DNA of 64,000 bases from Lacrimispora xylanolytica (GTDB taxonomy: Bacteria; Bacillota; Clostridia; Lachnospirales; Lachnospiraceae): contig NZ_CP113524.1 of the NCBI RefSeq assembly GCF_026723765.1, forward strand, positions 3,953,001-4,017,000. The letters are read 5' to 3'. The position numbers were made by a program, and so were the translations under genes. Shown here in pieces: positions 3,973 to 64,000 of the stretch (position 1 is the stretch's first letter; each line of letters begins with the position of its first letter). The notes under the pieces are model-generated. The model ran no database searches and was not told where the DNA came from. It was given only the letters and a program-made list of their open reading frames with translations.

Positions 3973-4551
3973 TTATAGAAATTCTTCCATTGCCTCTTCC
4001 ATACGCATTAATGAAGCGGCATAATCTTGAAATGCTTTTGCTGCCTCGGCTTCCTTATTTCCTTTATAGCAGATCCTGTGTTCCATACTGGCCCATAGAT
4101 CCATGGACATGGTACGAAGCTGAATCTCAACCGGATAATATTCCATTCCATCCGTATGATAAACCGGAACACCGAACACTATGTGATAGCTTCTATATCC
4201 ATTGGCCTTTGGTTTCCCAATATAGTCGCTCTCTTTTATAATTACAATATCATTCTGTTTTTTTAACAAATTCACGACTCCATAAATATCTCTTACAAAG
4301 AAACAGATCACACGGAGCCCTGCAATGTCTGTCAGATAGTTTCTGGCCGAATCGATACTGATTTCATGTCCATTGGTCTTAAGTTTATTCTCAATGCTTT
4401 CCTTTTGCTTAATTCTGTGCTGGATGTGATGAATGGGATAATTCTGGTACTTCCTTCTATAATCCTGATTCAGTACATCCACTCTGACCCGAAGGTTCTT
4501 AAGGGCATCCTCATAAGGCTGGACAAAGCATAGGTACTCTTCCTCGGTCAT
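3973..4551 (-). CDS. Small alarmone synthetase (RelA/SpoT synthetase domain, RelQ/RelP type)
   Basis: This is a single-domain (p)ppGpp synthetase that transfers pyrophosphate from ATP to GDP or GTP. The 192 residues contain only the synthetase fold: TDIAGLRVICFF (Mg-binding Asp at about residue 75), the substrate loop NGYRSYH (about 117-123), and EIQLRT followed by MDLWASMEH (about 142-158). No hydrolase, TGS or ACT domain is present, so it is a stand-alone enzyme, not Rel. The start is the ATG with GGGAGGTGG directly upstream; the longer reading from a TTG at 4623 has no ribosome site. It sits downstream of a YesL-like gene and ends at a clear terminator. Confidence 0.92.
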   Translation of the reverse strand: MTEEEYLCFVQPYEDALKNLRVRVDVLNQDYRRKYQNYPIHHIQHRIKQKESIENKLKTNGHEISIDSARNYLTDIAGLRVICFFVRDIYGVVNLLKKQNDIVIIKESDYIGKPKANGYRSYHIVFGVPVYHTDGMEYYPVEIQLRTMSMDLWASMEHRICYKGNKEAEAAKAFQDYAASLMRMEEAMEEFL

Positions 4552-4631
4552 ATTCCACCTCCCTGGTAATTCCTTATCACGGAAATTAAGTATAACCTCT
4601 TTTTGTGTCCATATGGTGTCCAAACTATGAA

Positions 4632-5378
4632 TTACATATCCTCAGAATTTTCTTTGGGATTTTCGTCACCCTTTCCCATTAAACTGCTGCTGATGGGTTC
4701 CTCATCATCCATAAAAAGTGGTCTCATTTCATCGGAATGCTCTTCTTTTTTAGGCATGTACTGCTCAAAAACCGGAGACAGAATGTATGAATTTATAAAT
4801 GCAAGAAGCGGAAATCCAAACAGCATGAAAATCATAAGGACCGGAGGTACTACAAAGATAAATCCCGTGGCTATCAAAGCTGCGTTGATTACAATCATAC
4901 CAATGGTACGGAACAGATGACGTAATGACATAAAGAACGCATTAAAAAAGGTTTTCTTTACGGTATTATAGAATCTGGACTGCAGTGGAAAAATGTACAT
5001 GAATACTGCAGCGTATACAATGGTCATAGCCAGGAATACGGTCAGCATTACTGTTTTTAAGGTTCCGGAACCAGTGTATAATCTGGCAAAGAAATACAGA
5101 TCCACTCCAAGAATGGCACCAATGGCCAAAAGCACCAGCCAGATTGCTGTTGCCTGCTTGAAGTTTTCCTTAAATGATTTGAAAAAGGATTTAATGGTGT
5201 ATCCGTCATCATCTCTTGCGAGCTTCAGAGTCACATAATATACAGCCGTGGTGGAAGCTCCAATGGTGAAAATCGGTATACTGAATATAAGCCATAAAAT
5301 ATTTAAGAGTATCAAATCTCCGAATTTGCCAATAAAGCGCCACACCGGATTATCATAATTAAAAAAACCTGATAGCAT
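4632..5378 (-). CDS. YesL family (DUF624) membrane protein
   Basis: This is a 248-residue integral membrane protein of the YesL/DUF624 family, often found near carbohydrate-uptake genes in Firmicutes but of unproven function. It opens with the family's typical GFFNYDNPVWRFIGKFGDLILLN and has about five membrane segments (near residues 21-50, 75-98, 108-132, 158-180 and 178-200), then a hydrophilic acidic tail of about 45 residues with many Glu and Ser. No sugar transporter is adjacent here. It has its own promoter (5414-5442), and the alarmone synthetase follows it. Confidence 0.85.
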   Translation of the reverse strand: MLSGFFNYDNPVWRFIGKFGDLILLNILWLIFSIPIFTIGASTTAVYYVTLKLARDDDGYTIKSFFKSFKENFKQATAIWLVLLAIGAILGVDLYFFARLYTGSGTLKTVMLTVFLAMTIVYAAVFMYIFPLQSRFYNTVKKTFFNAFFMSLRHLFRTIGMIVINAALIATGFIFVVPPVLMIFMLFGFPLLAFINSYILSPVFEQYMPKKEEHSDEMRPLFMDDEEPISSSLMGKGDENPKENSEDM

Positions 5379-51515: not shown

Positions 51516-52052
51516 ATGAAAACAATTAAACGCCAGCTTATTATGCGCTCCATTGTGGCAATGACCGCCCTATTTTTATTTCTCCTTGCAGGCTCCAGCC
51601 ATACCTTGAGCTTTGCCCATACAAAGGATGAATCCGTTTATATCTCGGGCCAGTGGGTCGAGGATGAAGTGGGCTGGCGTTTTGTCAATCATTGGAATTC
51701 TTCTTCCCCAGCAGGTACCTGGGCAGAATATCAAGGATATTCCTATTATTTTATGGACAATGGATACATGGTCACCGGTTGGAAATATTTAAACAACCAC
51801 TGGTATTTCTTTAACAAAGACAAAGGCAAGCAGGAAGGCTCTATGGTAATCGGCTGGGTATACGATCCTGATTATAACGGTTGGTTCTATACCAACGAGT
51901 ATGGTATCCTGTCTACCGGCTGGCATCGTATCAGCGGATCCTGGTACTATTTTAACCAGAATCAGGACGGAGTACTCGGACTTATGGCTACCAACCGAAT
52001 GGTGGAAGGATCTTACGTGGATGCCAATGGCCGTATGAATGAGGTTCGGTGA
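51516..52052 (+). CDS. Secreted protein with choline-binding-type wall repeats
   Basis: This is a 178-residue secreted protein. After a signal peptide (about 1-33) the whole mature part consists of about four aromatic-rich cell-wall-binding repeats (WYFFNKDKG, GWFYTNEYGILSTGW, WYYFNQNQDG) of the CW_binding/choline-binding type, with no attached catalytic domain. It probably sits on teichoic or other wall glycans. The gene is alone on its strand. AGGAGG lies 11 bases before ATG, somewhat far. Confidence 0.85.
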   Translation: MKTIKRQLIMRSIVAMTALFLFLLAGSSHTLSFAHTKDESVYISGQWVEDEVGWRFVNHWNSSSPAGTWAEYQGYSYYFMDNGYMVTGWKYLNNHWYFFNKDKGKQEGSMVIGWVYDPDYNGWFYTNEYGILSTGWHRISGSWYYFNQNQDGVLGLMATNRMVEGSYVDANGRMNEVR

Positions 52053-52205: not shown

Positions 52206-53183
52206 TTATTCAAATGGGTAACGTAATCCCCACTGGTTTCTAAGCTCGTCCATGATCTTCATAATATCAAGGGTCGTCTTATGAGGCATCTGCGGACATT
52301 CTGTCCAGCCATTTTTTATAGCTTCCGCACTTGCCGTAATCTGATATTCATATCCTGAGATTTGCTCAGGTCTTTCATGGGTCTCAATCACTTTTCGGTC
52401 CTTATCGTAAACCTTGATGGACTCAAAATTATTGATATTTTCAATCACCATATACCCTTTTGTTCCATAAATAATACCCTGACGGTCTGAGAGGACCTGC
52501 AAAGAGCTGTTTAAGATGGCCATTTTCCCGTCGGGATAGCAAAGTGTAATGCTGTTTTGTGCATCCACTCCGGTTTCAGTCTTTATTACACTGGATTTTA
52601 TATCTGTAACCTCATCACCAAAAATGAGAGAAGCAAAATTTAAAGTATATACGCCTACATCAAGCAGCGCACCTCCGGCAAGCTCAGGCTTTATCAGACG
52701 GGGCTTATCAGAAACCAGATAGCAGAGATTGGCCGTAAGTGTCATAGGCTCCCCGATAACACCAGAATTCAGGACCTCTTTAATGGTCTTAGCCATTGGC
52801 ATATATCGCACCCACATGGCTTCTGTAATCAGGAGCTTTTTATCTTCTGCCATAGCAATCATTTCTTCCGCCTGTGCCACATTGGCTGCAAAGGACTTTT
52901 CACAAAGAACATGCTTGCCGTTTTCCAGACATAGCTTTGCATGATTGCAATGTTCTGAATGAGGCGTTGCAATATAGACCAGCTCAATTTCCGGATCTTT
53001 TACCATCTCCTCATAAGTACCGTAAGCCTTTTTAATGGAGAAACGTTCTGCGAACTCCTGGGCTTTTTCCAAACTTCTGGAAGCAATACCAACAAGTTCA
53101 ACATCAGGCATTCTTACCATCGTATCAGCTAATACAGAGGCAATTCTTCCTGCTCCTATAATTCCAATTTTTAATGTATCCAT
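52206..53183 (-). CDS. Gfo/Idh/MocA family oxidoreductase
   Basis: This is a 325-residue NAD(P)-dependent dehydrogenase acting on a sugar or related alcohol. It has an N-terminal Rossmann fold with GIIGAGRIA (about 7-15), the catalytic EKSFAAN motif (Lys about 98), and GGALLDVGVY before the C-terminal alpha/beta domain. Closest in style to the YdgJ/dihydrodiol-dehydrogenase group. Substrate unknown; monocistronic. Confidence 0.9.
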   Translation of the reverse strand: MDTLKIGIIGAGRIASVLADTMVRMPDVELVGIASRSLEKAQEFAERFSIKKAYGTYEEMVKDPEIELVYIATPHSEHCNHAKLCLENGKHVLCEKSFAANVAQAEEMIAMAEDKKLLITEAMWVRYMPMAKTIKEVLNSGVIGEPMTLTANLCYLVSDKPRLIKPELAGGALLDVGVYTLNFASLIFGDEVTDIKSSVIKTETGVDAQNSITLCYPDGKMAILNSSLQVLSDRQGIIYGTKGYMVIENINNFESIKVYDKDRKVIETHERPEQISGYEYQITASAEAIKNGWTECPQMPHKTTLDIMKIMDELRNQWGLRYPFE

Positions 53184-53219: not shown

Positions 53220-54107
53220 CTAATCATTAGTATAGCATAACAAGGCAGCCTGTACAATCATTCGTTCCATCGATCCATAGCAGGTAGACAAGGTGATTAA
53301 ACCATCCTTGGTAGTGGGCAAATAAGACGTTTCATACATGGAGCTTTTTTTCATCTTACAGATAAATTCTGTTTTTTCCGAGGGTCGTAAAAATTCTGTT
53401 TCATAGCATTGAAGATCAGTTTCATTTCTGAGTTGGATAGAATAAATAATTGCCTTATACCATTTCCCGTTGTAATGTAGTTGAATGCTACTGTGAGCTT
53501 TATAAAATCCCGGTTTCATATATCGCTTTAAGTCTGCAAACATGGTTCCGTCCTTCATATTATGACCGAATATTACCGTATTCCCATCTCCTGGTTCCGG
53601 CGCGTCTTCTTGAACAAATAAGCAGCCACTTGGGTTTTTAGTTCGCATAAAGGTGTGATTTAAGTAGTAACCAGGCTGTTGGTTTCTTGCTACCGGATAA
53701 TCAATAGACGTCCCCGGTATGGATAACCACATGAGGTAATCTGGATTGATTTCAATAGGTGATTTATAACTGGATTTTATATTAGTGGTTGATTTTTTAT
53801 TGTCAGATTGAGTGCTCCAAATGACTTGGTTCAGATTTGCGTATTCTTTATTGGAGGACATATATAGATTTGCTCCATTGGTCAGTATTATTGCCGATAT
53901 AAGAAATACAGAAAACCAGAATGCTAAGAGGCATACTTTTAGCGGTCTGAGATTTTTGACTAAATGCAATAGCTTGGGATTTAAAAATTGGATTTGATAG
54001 TTTCTTTTATATTGGTTTCTTTTATATTGGTTTTTCTTATGTTCTTTTGGAATCTCTATTTGACTCTCCTTTCGACTTTTTAACCTTTTTTGATCTTTTT
54101 GAATCAT
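53220..54107 (-). CDS. srtB: Class B sortase
   Basis: This is a transpeptidase that attaches surface proteins to the wall. The 295-residue protein has a basic N terminus of about 50 residues containing a tandem NQYKR repeat, one membrane helix (about 58-80), and the class B catalytic domain: His in FGHNMKDG, Cys in TLSTCYG, Arg in MERMIVQAAL. The DNA of the tandem repeat is an exact 15-bp direct duplication. No good ribosome site precedes the ATG (AAAAGA only). It lies downstream of the giant adhesin on the same strand, which is its most likely substrate. Confidence 0.93.
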   Translation of the reverse strand: MIQKDQKRLKSRKESQIEIPKEHKKNQYKRNQYKRNYQIQFLNPKLLHLVKNLRPLKVCLLAFWFSVFLISAIILTNGANLYMSSNKEYANLNQVIWSTQSDNKKSTTNIKSSYKSPIEINPDYLMWLSIPGTSIDYPVARNQQPGYYLNHTFMRTKNPSGCLFVQEDAPEPGDGNTVIFGHNMKDGTMFADLKRYMKPGFYKAHSSIQLHYNGKWYKAIIYSIQLRNETDLQCYETEFLRPSEKTEFICKMKKSSMYETSYLPTTKDGLITLSTCYGSMERMIVQAALLCYTND

Positions 54108-54303
54108 ATATGATTTTCTTTTTTATTTTTAGCTTTCCTTAATCCGCTTACTCTCCTTACTCTATTTTATCTGTTTATTCTCTTATTCCTACTATTTTTG
54201 ATTATTTTTTTGCTCTTTGTTACTCTCTTTGGTTCTTTCTATGATGCTCTTTTTAATTCTCTTTTAGCTTTCCTGTTCGATCTTTTGTTTGGCATTCTGT
54301 TTG

Positions 54304-54323
54304 ATGCTCCCCGAAGGGAGCAT
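54304..54323 (-). terminator. UUCG hairpin at the adhesin 3' end
   Basis: ATGCTCCC-TTCG-GGGAGCAT on the minus strand is an 8-bp stem capped by a very stable cUUCGg tetraloop, just after the adhesin stop. The T-tract is missing, so it may mark an RNA 3' end or processing site rather than a full terminator; srtB could be reached by read-through. The rest of 54108-54303 is a purine-rich stretch on the coding strand with no gene. Confidence 0.5.
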
Positions 54324-54326
54324 TGT

Positions 54327-57300
54327 TTATTTACTTGTAGTTCCAATCACGTTTTCTGTTTGGCCTTTTTTGTTCTTTTTTTGTTTTCCTATCTTCAATG
54401 TAATAATTGTACCTGTCAGGCTGATGAATACCCCCATGGTCCAAATGAGAAAAGAAAAATGATCTCCCGTTTTCTCCCCTTTTATCTTTCCTTTTTTACC
54501 ATAAATCAGTTCCAGCCAGGAAGGATTTAAGGGGACTTTTTGATAAAAGGCAGTAACTTTACCAACTTTTGAAGGCTCATTGGGTGGATCTGGCTGGGGT
54601 GGTGGTGGTAATGGTATTGGATCTCCTCCCGTTTTTCCCGGAGTTTTTAAATCTGTCATGAATACATCAGCAACTATATTGGCTCTTGGTACACTAAATT
54701 CAACCGGTTCAGAAAATTGATATCCCTCAGGAGGTTCTATTTCTTTAAGTATGTATTTTTCTCCTGCTTCCAGCTGCCCTTCTATTATGGTTTCTGTTGG
54801 TCCTGTTGTAAAATCAGGTATTATAACTTTCCCTTGCATGTTTACGATTCGAAGTACAGCGCCTTTAAGCTGCCTTCCTTTTGAATCTACCTTATGTATT
54901 TTAATTTTTGTTGTATCATTGACCATTTCTACTGGTGTGATTTCATTTTGCATCTCTACAGTAAATAAGACAGATTCTGCGTACGCATATCCTTTTTGAG
55001 GCTTATCTTCACATAGAAAATATGATTCTCCTGCTGCCAGCTTTCCAAATATATGATGAGGTTCTTGAGTCGATATCCACCGCTCTATGATTGCACCATT
55101 TTGATCTCTTATACTCATTAGATTACCTGGGAGTTCATTTTGATCCTTGATAGATTTTTTAGATAATATTACATGAGTCTCATCATTAACCATTAAAACC
55201 TCATCGAATTTTCCGTCCAAGCTCACTGTAAAGGGAACATCTTCTCCATAGGAATAACCCTTTGCAGGTTTTACCTCATGAATCCAGTATTGATGACCAG
55301 CTAATAGCTGACCTTTTATTACCTTCATCTCTTCTGTTGTTGTAAAAATCAGCTCCTCACCTATTTTATAAGTATCTGAATTTCTAATGGCTTTTGCTGG
55401 AGATTTGTCTTCATTTAATATCTGAAGAATATTACCTGGTAAGAGATACTCGGCTTCCGATGGAGTTCCATTTGCATGCGCTCTTGCTGTTTTCTTTATG
55501 AAAATTGTTGTCTTCTTATCCTTCATTGTTACCGTAAGCTTCGTTGGCTCTCTGGGGACCATAAACTCTATTTTCTCACTATAAGCATATCCCGCAGGGG
55601 GCTCCTCTTCTATCAATTCATAGGATTTTCCGGCAATGAGCTGCCCCTTTATTAGGATTTGTTGCCCTTCAAATGTAAAAGACTTTATGAGTTTCCCGGT
55701 ATCTTTCTCCAAGAGGGTAAAGCGGCCTCCAGATAATATCGTTCCTGTCTCTTCATCTGTTTTTTGAATATACACTTCAGTCTGCTTATCTTCCATAACA
55801 ATGGTTTCTGAAATACCAGCATTATCAGCTATAAAAAGTATATCATTTTCATAGGAGTAACCATCTGGAGCTATATCCTCACGGACAATATACGGCTGAC
55901 CTGAATTTATCAATTGAGAGGGTATTTCCACTAATTTTGCTTCTGTCATTGTAAATTCATACAAAACCTTATTACTAATGGCATCAATGAGGCTATAATG
56001 TCCGCCTGTTATGATTTGTCCAGTCTCTCTGCTAACTTTAAGAAAATTTAATTTCACTGGACGATCTTCCAGATCCAGATTATCAACCATTCCCAGATTA
56101 TTTATGGTGAATCTATATATTCCACTTGTATTACTGTTTTTATCGCTGTATTCAGTAGTCTCTGTAAGACAATAGTTACCCCCTGCTGTTAGAATTTCAC
56201 GAATAGTATAATCATCTCTGTTATTTATAAAGACAGCATTCTGTAACGTCTTTTGTATCTCTCCAGATCTGATTTCTCCTTCCAGTTCGTAATCGTCTGC
56301 TGGTTCCTGTCTGATTTCGTATCTGGTTCCGTATGGGAGTCCGGTAAATGTTATATATCCATCTCCTGAAAGAGTAATGGTTCCTTCTCCCTTGATTCGT
56401 CCCTCTAAGGAACCTTTAAATGCCTGATAACCAGATAAAATTGCTCCATTCTGGTCTGTAAGCCTTACGCGGTATGTAAATGTATCCGGTTGGTTCGCAG
56501 CGTGCCCCGCACTACTGGGTATTCCGGTACCTGTTAGCTTATTTATAATGGTGATTGATCCATCTGGTACAATCGGATTTGACAGGACACTACGTTTTGA
56601 TACGGCATTTACTCTTGTTTCAAACCATGCTTTTGCTTGTGATCCTGTCTCACCGTTTACAACTACAACTACGTCTACCGTTCCGCTTTCATGGGCAGCT
56701 ACATCGGTAAGATTCCACGTGATAATGCCATTCCGCTCCGTTCCATAGTCCGTGGATCTTAAATATTCCAGTCCATCTGTTAGAACTGCTTTTATGTGAA
56801 CATCGGTCGGTTTGTCATAGGTGTTTGTATATGTGATAGAATATTTTATAACACTTCCTGTCTTGACAGCTCCATGATTCGCTCCAATGCTGCTAGTTAC
56901 CTTGGCGATTGGAACTTCCTTGATTACCGGATTTAAAATCGTGTAATCGTGATTATCATTATTCACCGCCCAGCTTGCCAGGATGTTCCCATTCCCATCC
57001 TTTAATTCCTGTCTGGTTCCCAGATACGTCCGGGAAGGGAGGGTATAATCCCCATTTTCATTGAAGTAGATTCGCCTGGTTTCCTTAAATGATTTTTCTG
57101 ACCTTCCATCGGAATATTTGGTATACTCTGTAATCTCATACAAGTGGCCTTCTGTAATGCCGTCCCTTACTGTTACTCTTTGATTTTCTCCAGTTCCGAT
57201 TAAGGCTGGCAATTCATAGCCAGTGTCAAGGTCCTTTATCACGGTATATACTTTTACGGGCACCCGGCCAGTTATGGTAAGTGCTTCAATGGCTCCGTTA

Positions 57301-60300
57301 TCGCTGGCCAGTTTTAATACATTGAAATTATTGGATACATTTTTGATTCCCGTTCCAGCTTTATTTACCGTAAAGATCACTGGTTTTGATAGCGCATATC
57401 CAGCTGGAGCTTTTAACTCCTCCATGATGTAGACCTGGTTTGCTTTAAGTTTTTTCTTTAAGATAAAACCATTCTCTCCGGAAACAACCGTTGCAATGGC
57501 CCCTCCGTTCTTTTGATATTCTCCATCTACCACGGCTGCCTCATAAACAGCAATCTCTGCCCCCTTTACGGCTATACCGGTATTAAAGTCCGTTTTTCTA
57601 AACTGGATCTCTGTAGGGTTGTTTAGTACCTCATAGCTGTATTTCACTTCCGTTCCACTCTCTGCCCCATCAAACTGGAACTTTTTCACTCCTGCGGTGA
57701 TCTGATAATAATCAGGAGGAGAGATTTCTTCTACGGTGTAAGTGTAGGCTTTTATGGTTCCATCTGTCTGAACCTTTCCCACTGGAAGATCTCTCAAAAC
57801 GGCGTTTCCTTTGGTGCCGGTTGTCATATACCAGATAACTCCTGTTTCCTGGTTTGTCACTTTAAATCTGGCATTTTCTAAGCCTTCTGTGGTGTCGGAA
57901 GCCTTTTTATTGATTTCCAATGCTCCAACGGTGGGATAATTAGTGAAATGATAAACCGGAATCTTTTCTGCTCCCACTTCGATTTTCACTGGATCTGCTT
58001 TCTGCATATAAGCCGGTGGGGTGACTTCCAAAATATAGTAGGTTCCGTATGCGACCTTACTGATCCGGTGGGGCTTTAGATCTCCCACTTGGAATCCGTC
58101 TATGATTTTGTCGTTAAATTGATCTTCTTTGGTATAGCGTCCGTCTAATCCGGAGATCCAGGTCTCTACAAAGTGGTTTTCATCCTTTATAAAGTTTCCG
58201 TCTTCATCAGCCCGATATAGGGCAAGTTCTGCCCCTTCGGCTGCATACTGATCGGTTCCATCTGTGACAACTTTTAAGACATTGATGAACTTCTCCTCAT
58301 TTTGTAAGCTAACTCGTTGTACGGCTCCTGTTTCCGTTAAGGTGATTGCTTTTGGATCAGCTGGTTCGAATCCATCCGGAACCTTTTCTTCCACCAGGAC
58401 ATAGGCTCCTATTTTTTTACCGTTTGCTTCTACATTCAAAGGGAGATAATCAAAACGGTGCATTCCCTCTAATGTGTCATAGGATTTTATACCGTCATAT
58501 TCCTTATAGTTGAACTGGTATTCAAAGATCAAAGGAAGCTTTCCATCCGTATCCAAAACACCATTTGTCACGTTCCGGTAAATGGTGATCCGGATTGCTG
58601 CCCCTGTGTCGGTTGTCCAGGTCTGAGTCATGCTCTCTCCCTTTCCGGTTGAGATGCTCCCGGTCCGTTCCGCACTCCGCATTCCGCTTTTGGTGTACCA
58701 GGTAAGATAGGTAAGTTCCTCTCCCTTTTCCCGGTAAGCAGCCTCAAAGTCTGTTAAAAAGCTTGATTTATTATCCGTTATACCTAAGAAGCTTTTTATA
58801 CGGTCCGCAAACTTCGTACTCTTTTCTGTCAGCTCTGTATAATCGCTTAGATTGTCTGTAGTCCATTCCCCTACTTTTTTTGACTCATCGTACTGAGGTT
58901 TTCCCCCTTCCATTAAAATAGTTCCATCTTGACCTGTCTTTGCTTCATAAAGGGTAAGTCCTGCAGCGTGATCATTTGGTAACAGCGACTTATTTCCTTT
59001 ACTGTCTAAATAGTATTTATAGATTTCCAGCTTGGTATGATCATTGGTCAGGTCAAAGGTCTGAATGTCACCAGCTGCTTTCACGGTAATCTCCATGGAA
59101 GTTCTGGCATATCCACTTGCTGCCTCCGTTTCTTCAAGGATATAGTCTCCAGCCGGGATGCCTTCAAAATACTTGGCTTTCCCATCCGTGATCCAGTCGG
59201 CTACAATACGCACCGGTGCATTATCTTCCGTATTTTCTACGGTCCACTCAGCCGGTTTGTCTTCTGCTTTTACCAGATAATAACCTTTGGGATAGGTGTT
59301 ACTGTCGGTGGTGGAAACTCTCTTCGCTTTATAAAGCACCAGGTGCGCCCCTGTGATCTGCTGATAGCTGTAAGTGCCTTTGGGTTCCGTTACTATTAGA
59401 GAAGACTTATAGTCTGACCCTTGGTCATAGTCACTGATCACTGGAATCCGGTACTGACTAGAGGAATCGGTTTTCGTAATCTCCACTTTAATCTTTGGAT
59501 CTTCCATAGAAGCGGTCTGCACCTCTCTATGTTCCGTTACGGTAATTCCCTGGGGGAAGCCTTTTTGATAGCCGGAAGGGGCCTTTACCTCTTCCATGAT
59601 GTACGTTCCTGGAATCACACGCTTTAACATATCTGCCTGTCCCACGGATTTTTCGGATTGGAACGGATCATTGGGATAGGTTTCTCCAGTGATCCAGGTA
59701 TTTTCCATGATCCAGGCTTCTCCCTGGCGGTAGTAGAGCTTCGGATCATCGGTGATATCCTCATCTTCACCAATGGCATCTCTTTCGGCCTTATGATTGA
59801 TCCGGTAAGCGACCCGGTTAAAAGCCTCCAAGAGATCATCGTATTTGTATCTCACATAATCCCCGTCAATGTCATAAATAGGATCTCCCTTTTTATAGGT
59901 TTCATTGGATTTTTGATAATACTCCGGTAGGCCATGGCTGTTAAATACCGGATTCATGCTCTTTTGAAAGGTGTTCCCCTGGTATGTTCCAGTGGTGTAC
60001 TCCTGGTCGGTATCTGCATTCATGGTAGCAATCCGGAAGGTTCTTATCTTTTCCCTGGCTATAATAGCCCCAGTTTTATTTTTTGAAAGCTTTACCGGCC
60101 ATACCATAAGCTTGTTGTTATCTTTGGGGTCTGTTTCGCTACTCCGGGTATAGGCCATTCCGGTGCTAGGATTAACAAATGCATCCCGGTTCCCTTCGGA
60201 ATCCAGATGGTAAAGTGTTGTTTCAGACGGTAGGGTAAGGAGCTTGTCTGCCTTTGTATAGCGGACCTTGGTTAGATCTCCCCCAGCCAGTTCAAAGACT

Positions 60301-63300
60301 GGGTTTCCTGCCTTTAACACAAAGATGGATTCCCGGTTCTTTACAGATACCTTATTGCTGTTCCTGTCATAACCATATACAGTCCCATCAGCCCCAGCCT
60401 CTGTAACCGTAAGATCTGCCAGAGAATAAAAGAGTATGTCGGTATCTTCCCGGTCAACGGTCTGATACGTCCAGGTTCCTTCTCCGGTCTCTCCCAAAAG
60501 GCTTCCTTCCTGGTCCTGCTTGTTAATAAATTCTACGGTAGTCCCAGCGTATCCTTTTTTCACTATTATGGATTGGACGTTGTTGTTACGGTCCCTGGTC
60601 ACTTCCACGCCGTCATACCCGTAATCTCCACTATCTCCGTTCTCTTTAACCTCAATGGCATCGTATAGCGCCATTTTTGCTCCAGCTGCGTAGCGGTTCT
60701 TATCGTCAGCGGTATCCAGTGGTCTGGAGACCAGGCCATATCCAGCAAACACACCATTCAAGTAAACTGGCTCCACATCTTCTCCTGCTTCTTTTCTGGC
60801 CATAAGTGACTCTAAGGTTCCTTTGAACCAGCCATATCCTAAGTAGGTTCCATTTTTATAGCCAAACTCCAGGTTTTCCGCTCCGTATCTTTGCTTTAAT
60901 TCCAGTCCCGTTCCTTCGACTCTGGTTTCGGTCTGATAGGTGACAGTCTGGGCTGAATCCTTGATTTTAGATACTTCTAAGCGGACCGGGGTATTTGCCA
61001 CATAGACCCTTGCGGTATCCTCTTTCACAGTCCCATCTTCACCTTGATTTTCATAAATGGCTGCGGCCACTCTCTCATCCCGGTTTCCGTCCAGGTAATA
61101 AGTGGTCTGATCGGAATAGATTTCAATGGCTACCGGCTTTGTTCTCACATAACCAGCAGGAGGCTTAATTTCACAAAGAACATACGTCCCTGCGCCAAGT
61201 GGCTGGGGAGTGACAAGATATCCGGTGTTCTGATCCTGATACTCCGTCTTTCCGTTATCCTCCTCCTTGGCCTGAAGGCCGTCCCTGATGGTGGTAAAGG
61301 CTTCGAACTGTCCAGTCCTCCGTCCTTCCTGATCGGAAAGGATTACTTGTTTTGCTTCCTCGCAGGTAGGGGTTCCTGCCGGGACGATTCCGGTCCATAG
61401 AGTCTGCCCCGTTTCACCCAGCAATCCCGAATTATTTATTGTTTGTGCTCCCATGGCTTCTAAAAACTCCTTAGAGCCTTTGATTCTGGTATCTGTCTCA
61501 TAAAATTTCACCAGACCATCCATGGTTTCTCCGTCTTCTCTGGAAGCGGCATACAGGGCAAAGATGGCCCCATCATGTAAGATATTTTCTCCTGTCTCGG
61601 AATCCAGCTTTTCGATCCGCAGCCGGCTTTTATAAAAGGTGTTTGTGAACTTCCGGTATCCATACCCTTTATAGCTGGGGGTGCCATTCTGATTTTGGAC
61701 CGCATCCGTTTGCTCATTGGCCGGTTCTGTCATAGACCAGGGAACTAACATGGAAGCGTACTTGCCATTATAGGCGGTCTGCATTCCCTCCATGGCTGTG
61801 ACATGGTCTTGATAGACCACTCCGCTCTCGGCTGGAAACGCCACCTGGTCATAGATCTGTTTGTCCTCTGAGATAGAGCCGTAACGGTAGATTTTCTCAA
61901 CTCCATCGTTCTCATAGGTGGAGCCGTTTGGCGTTCTCTTTCCGGTATTCCCATCGTCGGCCAGGTAATGGCTGTTTGAACTGCCTCCGGCTTCTTTGGG
62001 GTGGACCAGGGTGTTATAGTAATCTTTTCCCGGATCGTTCTTCTCCTGGGTGATGGTAAAGTGTCCCTTTCCGGATGGGTCTCCAGGAGACGTACCGGAA
62101 ATTGCCTGAAGGTCTAAACCATAAGGATAAATTTCATAATCTCCTAACCGGCTGTGCGCCCGGATGACATATTTTCGCTTGTCCTCTCCATTCTCTCCCG
62201 GCCATTCCTCATTAAATCGAATATGATATTTGGAAGAAAGTGCTGCCACACTGTCAGAAGCATTATAGTTGTAATAGTGACTCATTGCTTCTGGCGTCTG
62301 ATCTGATCCGGCTTTCCCTCCTTCGTATACCGCTGGAAGTTCAATTTCTTTTGGAGCATCTGTCTTATAATGCTTATTGAAAAGATCTCCTAATTCCTTA
62401 TTAAAAGGCTGCTGTTCTACGGCCACGTAGGTTCCGTAGGGGAGATATTCTGACACTCCATAGCAATATCCCGCCTCTGCATCTTCCTGATCGGCGCTTA
62501 GGGTCGTGGTATCTTTGTCTTTTCCTCCTTCTTCTTCACTGTCCCAGTGAATGGAATAAATTTCATCAAGGTCGTAGCTAAAGAACGGTTTTAAATAATT
62601 TTCCGCTTTTTTAATGGCTTCAGACAAAGCCTTATCATAAAGTTCATCCGGATATTTCTTCTGTTCGAAAGCCCCCTCCCTTTCTCCGGCCGGATTCTGT
62701 TTTACCAGCTTTGCCACTTCATCATCCAAGTACCAGGTAATTGCAAACTGGCGGACATGATCAGAACGCTGGGAATTACTTTCAGCTTTAGGAGAGGTGC
62801 TAATATTGTTTTTCATGTCTGAATTGTTATGGATGGCCGGGTATTCCTTTTGTCCTCCTCCCGTTCCAAACAGTAGCTGCTTGATCCAGGCAAATGGTTT
62901 AAAGGAAGTGCTGCCTTTGTCTGTCCGGTCCCATTTATCTTCATTGGCTACTTTGATACCATCAAAAAATTTCTCATAATTGTAACCGCTGATCTCCCGG
63001 TCGTTTCCGGCTTCATCCTTAACTTTCTGCAAGCCTTTTTCCAAAATTGCTGTATACCCTGGATTTTGATCTGCATTGATATAACTATTTGTGTAACTAT
63101 AAAGTTCAGGATTGGCAATTGCTGCCTGGTTGGAATCTTTTTTCAGAGGAGTGGTCTCATAGTCTACGTTGGTGTATAGCTTTTGTGCTTTCTCCGGGAA
63201 TGAAGTCCGGTAAGCTTTGATATCCACGGTATTTCCATTCCGGTCCTGCCAGAGAATGCTTCCATCCTCTGCTCGGTAGAGCCGTTCTAAGTTGGACTTT

Positions 63301-64000
63301 AGGTAGACTTTAAACCGGAGGTTTTTCATATATGCTGCGTTGTCTTTGGTTCCCCCTCCCTGTTCGATATACTTATCCATTCCTCCAGCGTTTGCATAGG
63401 TATTATCTTCGTAGGTTCCATCCGCCTGGACCGATATATTCTTTGTGATCTTAACCTTCTGTATGATGGGCCGTCCTTGTAAGGAAACAGGGGCTAGTCT
63501 GGTCCCGCCGTCAGAATCGATCCGGGTCCGGTCATACCGGAGCGTCACGGATTCAATGTAACTTCCAGCACTGGCCATCTTTGGTGTCACAGAAATGTTA
63601 CCATAGTACTCTGCATACTCCTGGGGCGTGGTATAGGTTCCTTCCATCAGCTCCGTATTATATTTGATCCGGTACTCCTTTGTTTCGGTTCCCTCACCTC
63701 CAGATGCTTCTATGGTATAACCTGTTCCGTCATATACGGCTGTCACTGGTGTGTCCACGTCCTTTAATTCATAGCCTGGTGCTACCTGGATCTCTTCCTC
63801 TACCATGACCTTTTTTATACTTCCGTCATTGTTCCGGATGGGTTCGCCCTGGTCATAGACCCAATAGGTACGCTCCGGGCTTTCCTGTAAGGTGATTTTT
63901 GATAAATCTTCTGGAAAAACGGCCTGTTTATTAGAAAGTTCCCCGGCCTTTACCTTGGCAAAGGTAAGAAAACCATTACTATTTTCCTTATAATCTTCCA
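54327..64000 (-). CDS. Giant SpaA/Cna-B repeat surface adhesin, 5' end outside the window
   Basis: About 3,223 codons of a surface protein lie in the window, open to the right edge; the frame continues upstream of the ATG at 63806, so that Met is internal. It contains an N-terminal region of unknown type (nt 62000-64000), then many Cna-B/SpaA-like modules marked by KxxxxETG/DSxTG strands and E-xPPAGY endings (for example nt 61630-61110, 59500-59030, 58350-57950, 57600-57350), a DUF11-like domain (nt 56900-56560), an isopeptide pilin-type domain (nt 56580-56200), and about five more SpaA modules (nt 56050-54640). After a Pro-rich linker near nt 54600 comes EKTGD, a hydrophobic helix and a basic tail. 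This is sortase-substrate topology without LPxTG. Role: adhesion or a pilus-like fibre, inferred. Confidence 0.9.
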   Translation of the reverse strand, partial: EDYKENSNGFLTFAKVKAGELSNKQAVFPEDLSKITLQESPERTYWVYDQGEPIRNNDGSIKKVMVEEEIQVAPGYELKDVDTPVTAVYDGTGYTIEASGGEGTETKEYRIKYNTELMEGTYTTPQEYAEYYGNISVTPKMASAGSYIESVTLRYDRTRIDSDGGTRLAPVSLQGRPIIQKVKITKNISVQADGTYEDNTYANAGGMDKYIEQGGGTKDNAAYMKNLRFKVYLKSNLERLYRAEDGSILWQDRNGNTVDIKAYRTSFPEKAQKLYTNVDYETTPLKKDSNQAAIANPELYSYTNSYINADQNPGYTAILEKGLQKVKDEAGNDREISGYNYEKFFDGIKVANEDKWDRTDKGSTSFKPFAWIKQLLFGTGGGQKEYPAIHNNSDMKNNISTSPKAESNSQRSDHVRQFAITWYLDDEVAKLVKQNPAGEREGAFEQKKYPDELYDKALSEAIKKAENYLKPFFSYDLDEIYSIHWDSEEEGGKDKDTTTLSADQEDAEAGYCYGVSEYLPYGTYVAVEQQPFNKELGDLFNKHYKTDAPKEIELPAVYEGGKAGSDQTPEAMSHYYNYNASDSVAALSSKYHIRFNEEWPGENGEDKRKYVIRAHSRLGDYEIYPYGLDLQAISGTSPGDPSGKGHFTITQEKNDPGKDYYNTLVHPKEAGGSSNSHYLADDGNTGKRTPNGSTYENDGVEKIYRYGSISEDKQIYDQVAFPAESGVVYQDHVTAMEGMQTAYNGKYASMLVPWSMTEPANEQTDAVQNQNGTPSYKGYGYRKFTNTFYKSRLRIEKLDSETGENILHDGAIFALYAASREDGETMDGLVKFYETDTRIKGSKEFLEAMGAQTINNSGLLGETGQTLWTGIVPAGTPTCEEAKQVILSDQEGRRTGQFEAFTTIRDGLQAKEEDNGKTEYQDQNTGYLVTPQPLGAGTYVLCEIKPPAGYVRTKPVAIEIYSDQTTYYLDGNRDERVAAAIYENQGEDGTVKEDTARVYVANTPVRLEVSKIKDSAQTVTYQTETRVEGTGLELKQRYGAENLEFGYKNGTYLGYGWFKGTLESLMARKEAGEDVEPVYLNGVFAGYGLVSRPLDTADDKNRYAAGAKMALYDAIEVKENGDSGDYGYDGVEVTRDRNNNVQSIIVKKGYAGTTVEFINKQDQEGSLLGETGEGTWTYQTVDREDTDILFYSLADLTVTEAGADGTVYGYDRNSNKVSVKNRESIFVLKAGNPVFELAGGDLTKVRYTKADKLLTLPSETTLYHLDSEGNRDAFVNPSTGMAYTRSSETDPKDNNKLMVWPVKLSKNKTGAIIAREKIRTFRIATMNADTDQEYTTGTYQGNTFQKSMNPVFNSHGLPEYYQKSNETYKKGDPIYDIDGDYVRYKYDDLLEAFNRVAYRINHKAERDAIGEDEDITDDPKLYYRQGEAWIMENTWITGETYPNDPFQSEKSVGQADMLKRVIPGTYIMEEVKAPSGYQKGFPQGITVTEHREVQTASMEDPKIKVEITKTDSSSQYRIPVISDYDQGSDYKSSLIVTEPKGTYSYQQITGAHLVLYKAKRVSTTDSNTYPKGYYLVKAEDKPAEWTVENTEDNAPVRIVADWITDGKAKYFEGIPAGDYILEETEAASGYARTSMEITVKAAGDIQTFDLTNDHTKLEIYKYYLDSKGNKSLLPNDHAAGLTLYEAKTGQDGTILMEGGKPQYDESKKVGEWTTDNLSDYTELTEKSTKFADRIKSFLGITDNKSSFLTDFEAAYREKGEELTYLTWYTKSGMRSAERTGSISTGKGESMTQTWTTDTGAAIRITIYRNVTNGVLDTDGKLPLIFEYQFNYKEYDGIKSYDTLEGMHRFDYLPLNVEANGKKIGAYVLVEEKVPDGFEPADPKAITLTETGAVQRVSLQNEEKFINVLKVVTDGTDQYAAEGAELALYRADEDGNFIKDENHFVETWISGLDGRYTKEDQFNDKIIDGFQVGDLKPHRISKVAYGTYYILEVTPPAYMQKADPVKIEVGAEKIPVYHFTNYPTVGALEINKKASDTTEGLENARFKVTNQETGVIWYMTTGTKGNAVLRDLPVGKVQTDGTIKAYTYTVEEISPPDYYQITAGVKKFQFDGAESGTEVKYSYEVLNNPTEIQFRKTDFNTGIAVKGAEIAVYEAAVVDGEYQKNGGAIATVVSGENGFILKKKLKANQVYIMEELKAPAGYALSKPVIFTVNKAGTGIKNVSNNFNVLKLASDNGAIEALTITGRVPVKVYTVIKDLDTGYELPALIGTGENQRVTVRDGITEGHLYEITEYTKYSDGRSEKSFKETRRIYFNENGDYTLPSRTYLGTRQELKDGNGNILASWAVNNDNHDYTILNPVIKEVPIAKVTSSIGANHGAVKTGSVIKYSITYTNTYDKPTDVHIKAVLTDGLEYLRSTDYGTERNGIITWNLTDVAAHESGTVDVVVVVNGETGSQAKAWFETRVNAVSKRSVLSNPIVPDGSITIINKLTGTGIPSSAGHAANQPDTFTYRVRLTDQNGAILSGYQAFKGSLEGRIKGEGTITLSGDGYITFTGLPYGTRYEIRQEPADDYELEGEIRSGEIQKTLQNAVFINNRDDYTIREILTAGGNYCLTETTEYSDKNSNTSGIYRFTINNLGMVDNLDLEDRPVKLNFLKVSRETGQIITGGHYSLIDAISNKVLYEFTMTEAKLVEIPSQLINSGQPYIVREDIAPDGYSYENDILFIADNAGISETIVMEDKQTEVYIQKTDEETGTILSGGRFTLLEKDTGKLIKSFTFEGQQILIKGQLIAGKSYELIEEEPPAGYAYSEKIEFMVPREPTKLTVTMKDKKTTIFIKKTARAHANGTPSEAEYLLPGNILQILNEDKSPAKAIRNSDTYKIGEELIFTTTEEMKVIKGQLLAGHQYWIHEVKPAKGYSYGEDVPFTVSLDGKFDEVLMVNDETHVILSKKSIKDQNELPGNLMSIRDQNGAIIERWISTQEPHHIFGKLAAGESYFLCEDKPQKGYAYAESVLFTVEMQNEITPVEMVNDTTKIKIHKVDSKGRQLKGAVLRIVNMQGKVIIPDFTTGPTETIIEGQLEAGEKYILKEIEPPEGYQFSEPVEFSVPRANIVADVFMTDLKTPGKTGGDPIPLPPPPQPDPPNEPSKVGKVTAFYQKVPLNPSWLELIYGKKGKIKGEKTGDHFSFLIWTMGVFISLTGTIITLKIGKQKKNKKGQTENVIGTTSK

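Follow-up and report, generated by a model that had tools for sequence, protein, structure and literature searches.

A proline-free C-terminal signal that probably diverged together with its adjoining class B sortase on a giant SpaA adhesin of Lacrimispora

Searches for cell wall sorting signals generally rely on patterns in which Leu-Pro, or something close to it, is obligatory. The patterns given in the available portion of a 2025 survey (LP.T[GAND], NP.TG, LP.GA, LA.TG, NPQTN, and IP.TG; PMC12617251) demand residues other than those of GEKTGD, the hexapeptide described here, which they would therefore miss. The accessible text on the AbpA-SrtB system of oral streptococci describes a dedicated class B sortase that likewise lies beside one adhesin with a distinct C-terminal signal (PMC4974636; NF040525). 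However, the AbpA signal is LPKTS with a short AVK tail, and its Leu and Pro are essential (PMC4974636), whereas the signal described below has no Leu-Pro and a full helix and tail. C. difficile SrtB is a class B enzyme with (S/P)PXTG substrates in which P2 Lys is common, as it is here (PMC4155245, PMC5118464, in their available parts), and its structure (5gyj, E 2.4e-46) is one of the solved structures nearest in sequence to the enzyme of this study. Its cleaved motifs retain Pro, though, and the same portions of PMC4155245 report several proteins per sortase, no one-to-one neighbour, and a failure to cleave the proline-free NVQTG. Spy0129 of group A Streptococcus, as presented in the excerpts of PMC3019223, is another accessory sortase of class B whose motifs have no Leu-Pro, but these motifs, (E/Q/V)(V/P)PTG, retain Pro at the variable position, and Spy0129 polymerises a pilus. 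The sequence of S. aureus SrtB (1qwz, E 3.1e-35) likewise points to the class B fold, and its substrate gene is in the same operon, but its motif, NPQTN in the substrate IsdC, retains Pro and has Asn after Thr (PMC3019223, same excerpts). The components of the locus reported here all belong to known kinds. No cognate signal entirely free of proline, and no natural fusion or polyprotein of a sortase with its substrate, was found in print among the matches listed from the open-access PMC literature.

The locus lies in a 64,000-nucleotide stretch of the Lacrimispora xylanolytica genome (NZ_CP113524.1, positions 3,953,001 to 4,017,000), which we refer to as the window. Its features, in window coordinates, are as follows.

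54327..63998, minus strand: in-window part of the giant SpaA-domain adhesin gene (open reading frame; PF17802 and PF24547 matches)
54537..54563, minus strand: conserved stretch GKVTAFYQK, about 20 residues upstream of GEKTGD (alignment)
54462..54479, minus strand: candidate sorting motif GEKTGD (sequence; pN 0.00 across seven genomes)
54396..54452, approximate limits, minus strand: hydrophobic helix of the sorting signal (sequence, counted by eye; hydropathy score)
54330..54395, minus strand: Lys-rich C-terminal tail (sequence)
54327-54329, minus strand: adhesin stop codon (sequence)
54108..54326, minus strand: low-complexity gap between the adhesin gene and srtB (sequence)
53220..54107, minus strand: srtB, predicted class B sortase gene, 295 aa, adjoining the adhesin gene in the same direction (PF04203; TIGR03064 best model)

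The adhesin frame extends past the window end and, read in the genome beyond it, comprises 4,689 codons in all. A Pfam scan placed SpaA domains (PF17802, 280.6 bits) and DUF7601 (PF24547, 56 bits) in the product, whose N terminus, judged by eye only, is basic and then hydrophobic close to the start, a possible export signal. The C-terminal residues up to the stop codon read ...WLELIYGKKGKIKGEKTGDHFSFLIWTMGVFISLTGTIITLKIGKQKKNKKGQTENVIGTTSK-stop. As in LPXTG-type proteins, a helix and a basic tail follow the motif at the C terminus; Leu-Pro-x-Thr-Gly itself is absent, the motif being GEKTGD, and the C terminus scores below the cut-off of PF00746 (Gram_pos_anchor). The sequence thus bears out the earlier note on this DNA, which had described a motif without Leu-Pro followed by a membrane helix and a basic tail. 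The 18-mer coding for GEKTGD occurs once in the 4.5-Mb one-contig genome, at the window site, and a reversed-pattern control occurs nowhere. A pilin-like WxxxxYxK reading of WLELIYGK was dropped, as it is not conserved in genomes G056 and G069.

The earlier note had also called the neighbouring enzyme a class B sortase, and this identification holds. The srtB product matches the sortase domain PF04203 at 57.9 bits (cut-off 26.6), and its best NCBIfam model is the class B model TIGR03064, at 142.3 bits and below the model cut-off of 153.75; seven other members of its clade score 128.3-162.1 bits, with one above the cut-off. The model for the LPKTxAVK-specific SrtB, NF040525, gives 49 bits against a cut-off of 200. 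The TLxTC signature reads TLSTC, and His182, Cys276, and Arg282 are invariant in nine aligned enzymes and, from this conservation, are the putative catalytic residues. Class B sortases are marked by a long helix between strands 6 and 7. An AlphaFold2 model predicts such a helix (residues 242-254) between strands 215-228 and 269-276, and this helix/strand block has a pLDDT of 91-93; the whole-model mean is only 68.2, a moderate confidence, and we therefore did not use the model to place residues in the groove.

Five more distant relatives have no gap between the two genes, the stop-to-stop frames of adhesin and sortase overlapping, and in L. aerotolerans the gap (L065:9602-9913) contains an expanded repeat encoding EEIQEE-like peptides. 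Within the gap of the window, scans returned six promoter-like sites against 5.5 in shuffles and one terminator-like site against 1.3. A hairpin of 10 pairs with a TTCG loop (adhesin strand) lies at 54302-54325, directly 3' of the adhesin stop codon; its T-rich tail is on the opposite strand, and the terminator scan was at shuffle level. Next after srtB, in the window (52206-53183) and in the clade loci read, is a gene that by eye encodes a Gfo/Idh/MocA-like oxidoreductase, and past it, in the window (51516-52052) and in the closest clade loci, one for a small protein with wall-binding-like repeats, also recognised by eye.

A motif without Leu-Pro could have lost its function, leaving the adhesin membrane-anchored, an outcome that the earlier note had allowed for. 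We compared the codons of the motif among relatives picked by their sortase and not by their motif: the window's genome, Lacrimispora aerotolerans, L. algidixylanolytica, Hungatella sp. UBA7603, Clostridium sp. Marseille-P2415, G022, and G056. Across these seven genomes the six GEKTGD codons differ synonymously only (pS 0.76, pN 0.00), and the flanking segments have pN 0.33-0.44. The motif is also identical in G399, Clostridium sp. 12(A), another genome of the window's species. In members of the clade further away the motif is GARTGD (G069), NERTGD (G439), or GRKTGD (G210); with these three added, the motif has a pN of 0.124, the lowest of 49 six-codon windows (median 0.495), T, G, and D are unchanged in all ten genomes, and K or R precedes T. 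The earlier note had raised EKTGD as a possible recognition sequence. Its lack of proline holds throughout, but the strict EKTGD does not, since the motif of the clade members with separate genes is [G/N]x[K/R]TGD.

These comparisons indicate that GEKTGD is maintained by selection and has not decayed. Homologous adhesins do have (L/I)PKTG(D/E) at the same place, so a loss of Leu-Pro is the probable history, and the score below the PF00746 cut-off also fits a signal decayed from LPKTGD. However, decay that left the adhesin in the membrane is contradicted by the absence of any nonsynonymous change in the six codons across the seven genomes. srtB, moreover, is kept beside the signal in every genome whose junction sits on one contig, and the whole sortase clade has proline-free motifs. 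We rejected decay on the codon analysis and give it hardly any credence.

Conserved signal and enzyme also covary across the genus. Seven of 25 genomes encode the clade SrtB; the congeners are related by descent, so these do not make seven independent cases. The same seven have the C-terminal GEKTGD signal, which was seen in none of the 18 congeners lacking that enzyme. In the clade call, 6 of 24 genomes matched at E <= 1.7e-68 and the best match in the other 18 was at >= 3.3e-29, G399 being counted in addition. Chance can produce the bare hexapeptide: its 18-mer was found at 17 places in 14 of the 25 genomes, against four places for the reversed control. Ten of these places are not C-terminal signals. 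The full signal, with helix and basic tail, occurs only at the other seven, all in adhesins and one per SrtB-bearing genome, and we therefore set chance aside as its explanation.

What homologous adhesins carry in genomes without the clade SrtB was read from 13 C-terminal stretches, nine of which had readable ends (L223, L228, L229, and L230 were unreadable). The nine ends, from eight congeners, are LPKTGD in six, IPKTG(D/E) in two, and LPGTGD in one, and a clade profile search found no sortase ORF of at least 150 codons in any of the 13 stretches. Five of the nine homologues share the adhesin N terminus at 66-72% identity; a query with its first 600 residues matched 20 of 145 relatives. In the other four (G003, G009, G012, and G015) the match to this query is limited to about 50-60 residues, although residues 1801 to 3900 of the window adhesin align with them at 59-91%. 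The earlier note had counted LPxTG homologues at this place, together with a lack of SrtB activity on EKTGD, against a new recognition sequence. Such homologues exist, but all nine are confined to eight genomes without the SrtB clade, a distribution that fits a pairing of signal and enzyme. Adjacent and covarying genes are what is looked for in an accessory sortase with a linked cognate substrate, and both features are present here. In six of these congeners the gene next to the PKTG-type adhesin encodes a membrane protein of about 354-368 residues (L218:3023-4144, L219:2086-3186, L222, L224, L225, L227); the two copies scanned matched no convincing Pfam family.

The window's genome has two sortase matches. 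The second, 258 residues long, is also class B (TIGR03064, 193.6 bits) and lies beside a gene that looks glmM-like by eye. GEKTGD might be functional but cleaved by this other enzyme, with the neighbouring SrtB acting on another substrate. At least one class B-like match is present in each of 24 genomes of the genus, and KTGD is common to GEKTGD and LPKTGD; for this reason a proline-free signal may be one that the clade SrtB accepts without favouring it, and another sortase might act on it too. Against a main role for the other enzyme, the 18 congeners without the clade SrtB have no C-terminal GEKTGD, and fusions described below bind the clade sortase to a proline-free signal. We consider cleavage by the second sortase improbable. 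Its substrate would presumably be a second giant SpaA adhesin, encoded outside the window (L023:348-15857), which has 5,169 residues and ends in LPKTGE; none of the ORFs listed after it is a sortase by eye. The cell would then have two sorting channels, presumably without cross-reaction between them. PF00746 finds this LPKTGE adhesin as its sole match above the cut-off genome-wide, so further substrates of either sortase are possible.

To place the enzyme among its relatives, we used a 44-row tree of class B sortases. It comprises the window enzyme, the second sortase of the same genome, and 42 loci where a motif lies next to the sortase or is fused to it. Thirteen proline-free [K/R]TG rows, two of them fused to their adhesin, fall on one side of a branch with an SH-aLRT support of 91 (quick method), and most of the other rows are near [SNT]PKTG or VPQTG motifs. 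The other L034-L173 loci (most without a convincing adjacent signal), the near-duplicate L087, and repeats of the same genomes were omitted; the label of L066 was taken from L188, another contig of apparently the same genome, and four labels (L080, L111, L121, and L137) rest on signals 1.0-1.9 kb off. Proline-free motifs are also found outside the clade, at six class B loci (L047, L084, L102, L113, L121, and L137), and five changes between Pro and no Pro are required over the tree; loss of Pro alone is therefore no mark of this pairing. The clade is marked by Trp216 and Tyr124 (22/22 clade enzymes) and Lys194 (21/22), all absent from 24 Pro-motif enzymes. Residue 231 aligns with Asp164 of C. 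difficile SrtB, which the available part of PMC5118464 proposes to bind P2 Lys. It is Asp or Glu in all 22 clade enzymes and also in 16 of the 24 Pro-motif enzymes, and hence cannot account for the loss of Pro; a pair of P2 Lys and this acid was rejected as its cause.

Adhesin bodies are mosaic among the congeners. The LPGTGD adhesin of G003 shares 91% identity with the window adhesin over residues 2401-2700, 26% over 1-300, and 35% over 4501-4689, and the GEKTGD adhesin of G001 is 88% identical at residues 1-300 and 41% at 4501-4689. Two changes of motif type are needed on each of four body-block trees, where the misplaced row varies by block (G022, G003, or G001), compared with a single change on the C-terminal-block tree. 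Among six GEKTGD genomes, SrtB identity correlates with C-terminal identity at r 0.96 and with N-terminal identity at r 0.54 over 15 pairs, which are non-independent. As the C-terminal module tracks SrtB while the bodies are mosaic, the signal and srtB appear to move together, as one C-terminal cassette exchanged between adhesin bodies.

After export, the adhesin would be held in the membrane by its helix and Lys tail, and SrtB would then cleave between Thr and Gly and link the adhesin to the wall. That C. difficile SrtB left the proline-free NVQTG uncut (PMC4155245) speaks against taking this cleavage for granted. SrtB might instead, or before wall anchoring, polymerise the adhesin into a pilus-like fibre. 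The class B enzyme Spy0129 polymerises pili through its (E/Q/V)(V/P)PTG motifs (PMC3019223, as excerpted), SpaA domains are found in pilins, and a conserved Tyr-containing stretch precedes the motif: the G-x-[IV]-T-A-x-Y pattern of GKVTAFYQK is kept in all eight aligned separate-gene adhesins and is looser in fusions. However, the same pattern was seen by eye in the nine PKTG-type homologues, PKTG and GEKTGD ends both following it in the alignment, and the window ORF list holds no separate pilin ORF beside the pair. Polymerisation thus seems very improbable to us, and wall anchoring by SrtB is the course we favour.

The most surprising result is that sortases of this clade also occur fused to their substrates. 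In [Clostridium] asparagiforme (Enterocloster asparagiformis) and G197, a single frame contains SpaA domains, a proline-free TGD motif, a membrane domain, and a clade sortase. Ten of the 17 genomes in the genus of G197 have the clade sortase inside a frame of 4,074-4,322 codons; of the rest, one lacks a match and the others have shorter frames, in some cases close to a contig end. This sister genus is apparently Enterocloster, since one of the ten genomes (G475) matches E. asparagiformis. Twelve loci were read, of which L249 and L255 showed no motif, and one of the ten long frames, that of G478, was left unread. In each of the 11 fusions scanned with Pfam, SpaA and sortase matches fell within a single frame, and the order was the same in all 11 read: SpaA domains, x[V/I/F][R/K/Q]TGD, membrane domain, sortase. 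T, G, and D never vary in these 11, nor do the catalytic His and Cys, and the two residues before T are [VIF][RKQ]. At the position of the catalytic Arg, two of the 11 (L247 and L256) have Tyr, which would make for an inactive or altered active site.

The middle domain of the fusions is homologous to the free protein of about 354-368 residues that follows PKTG-type adhesins (80.6 and 38.0 bits). A signal-peptide-like segment of the free protein persists inside the fusions, all 11 of which have an [AVSTG]-x-A site where one would be expected (L174, L095, L245-L256); the shuffled mean was 4.3, and none of 2000 shuffles reached 11. At a later helix, which in some rows of this control was the third, the site occurred in 4 of 11. 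A cut by signal peptidase within the polyprotein is therefore possible. By a crude count from hydropathy, three to five helices lie between motif and sortase, so the topology of the fusions is an estimate. We propose that the clade reads a proline-free x-x-[K/R/Q]-T-G-D and that in Enterocloster the substrate, a membrane accessory domain, and the sortase make up one polyprotein, longer than 4,000 residues, that anchors itself: signal peptidase would cut it at the retained internal signal peptide, and its own sortase domain would cleave and attach the adhesin. This is a proposal that we could equally well see upheld or overturned.

A second type of fusion, of 1,644-1,670 codons, is present in four other genera (L175-L178, from G058, G051, G036, and G145), in the order thioester domain, SpaA domains, VPQTGDD, two helices (by eye), and class B sortase. 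These sortases form a separate branch with a support of 98, and fusion thus seems to have arisen more than once.

Together, the observed conservation, covariation, cassette exchange, and fusion, along with the sortase tree, favour the possibility raised in the earlier note that the adjacent SrtB has a distinct recognition sequence. On this comparative evidence, GEKTGD very probably functions as a cell wall sorting signal and has diverged jointly with the class B sortase that adjoins it, and SrtB is best read as a dedicated accessory enzyme whose cognate signal is divergent. The switch of signal with enzyme on homologous adhesins amounts to a natural experiment. If confirmed, the enzyme-signal pair may be orthogonal to Leu-Pro sortases and useful in protein ligation. 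The fusions, with their internal signal-peptidase-like site, tie a sortase directly to its substrate and make self-anchoring by a bacterial polyprotein testable; if this proposal is true, such a polyprotein would by its very construction provide enzyme and substrate at 1:1.
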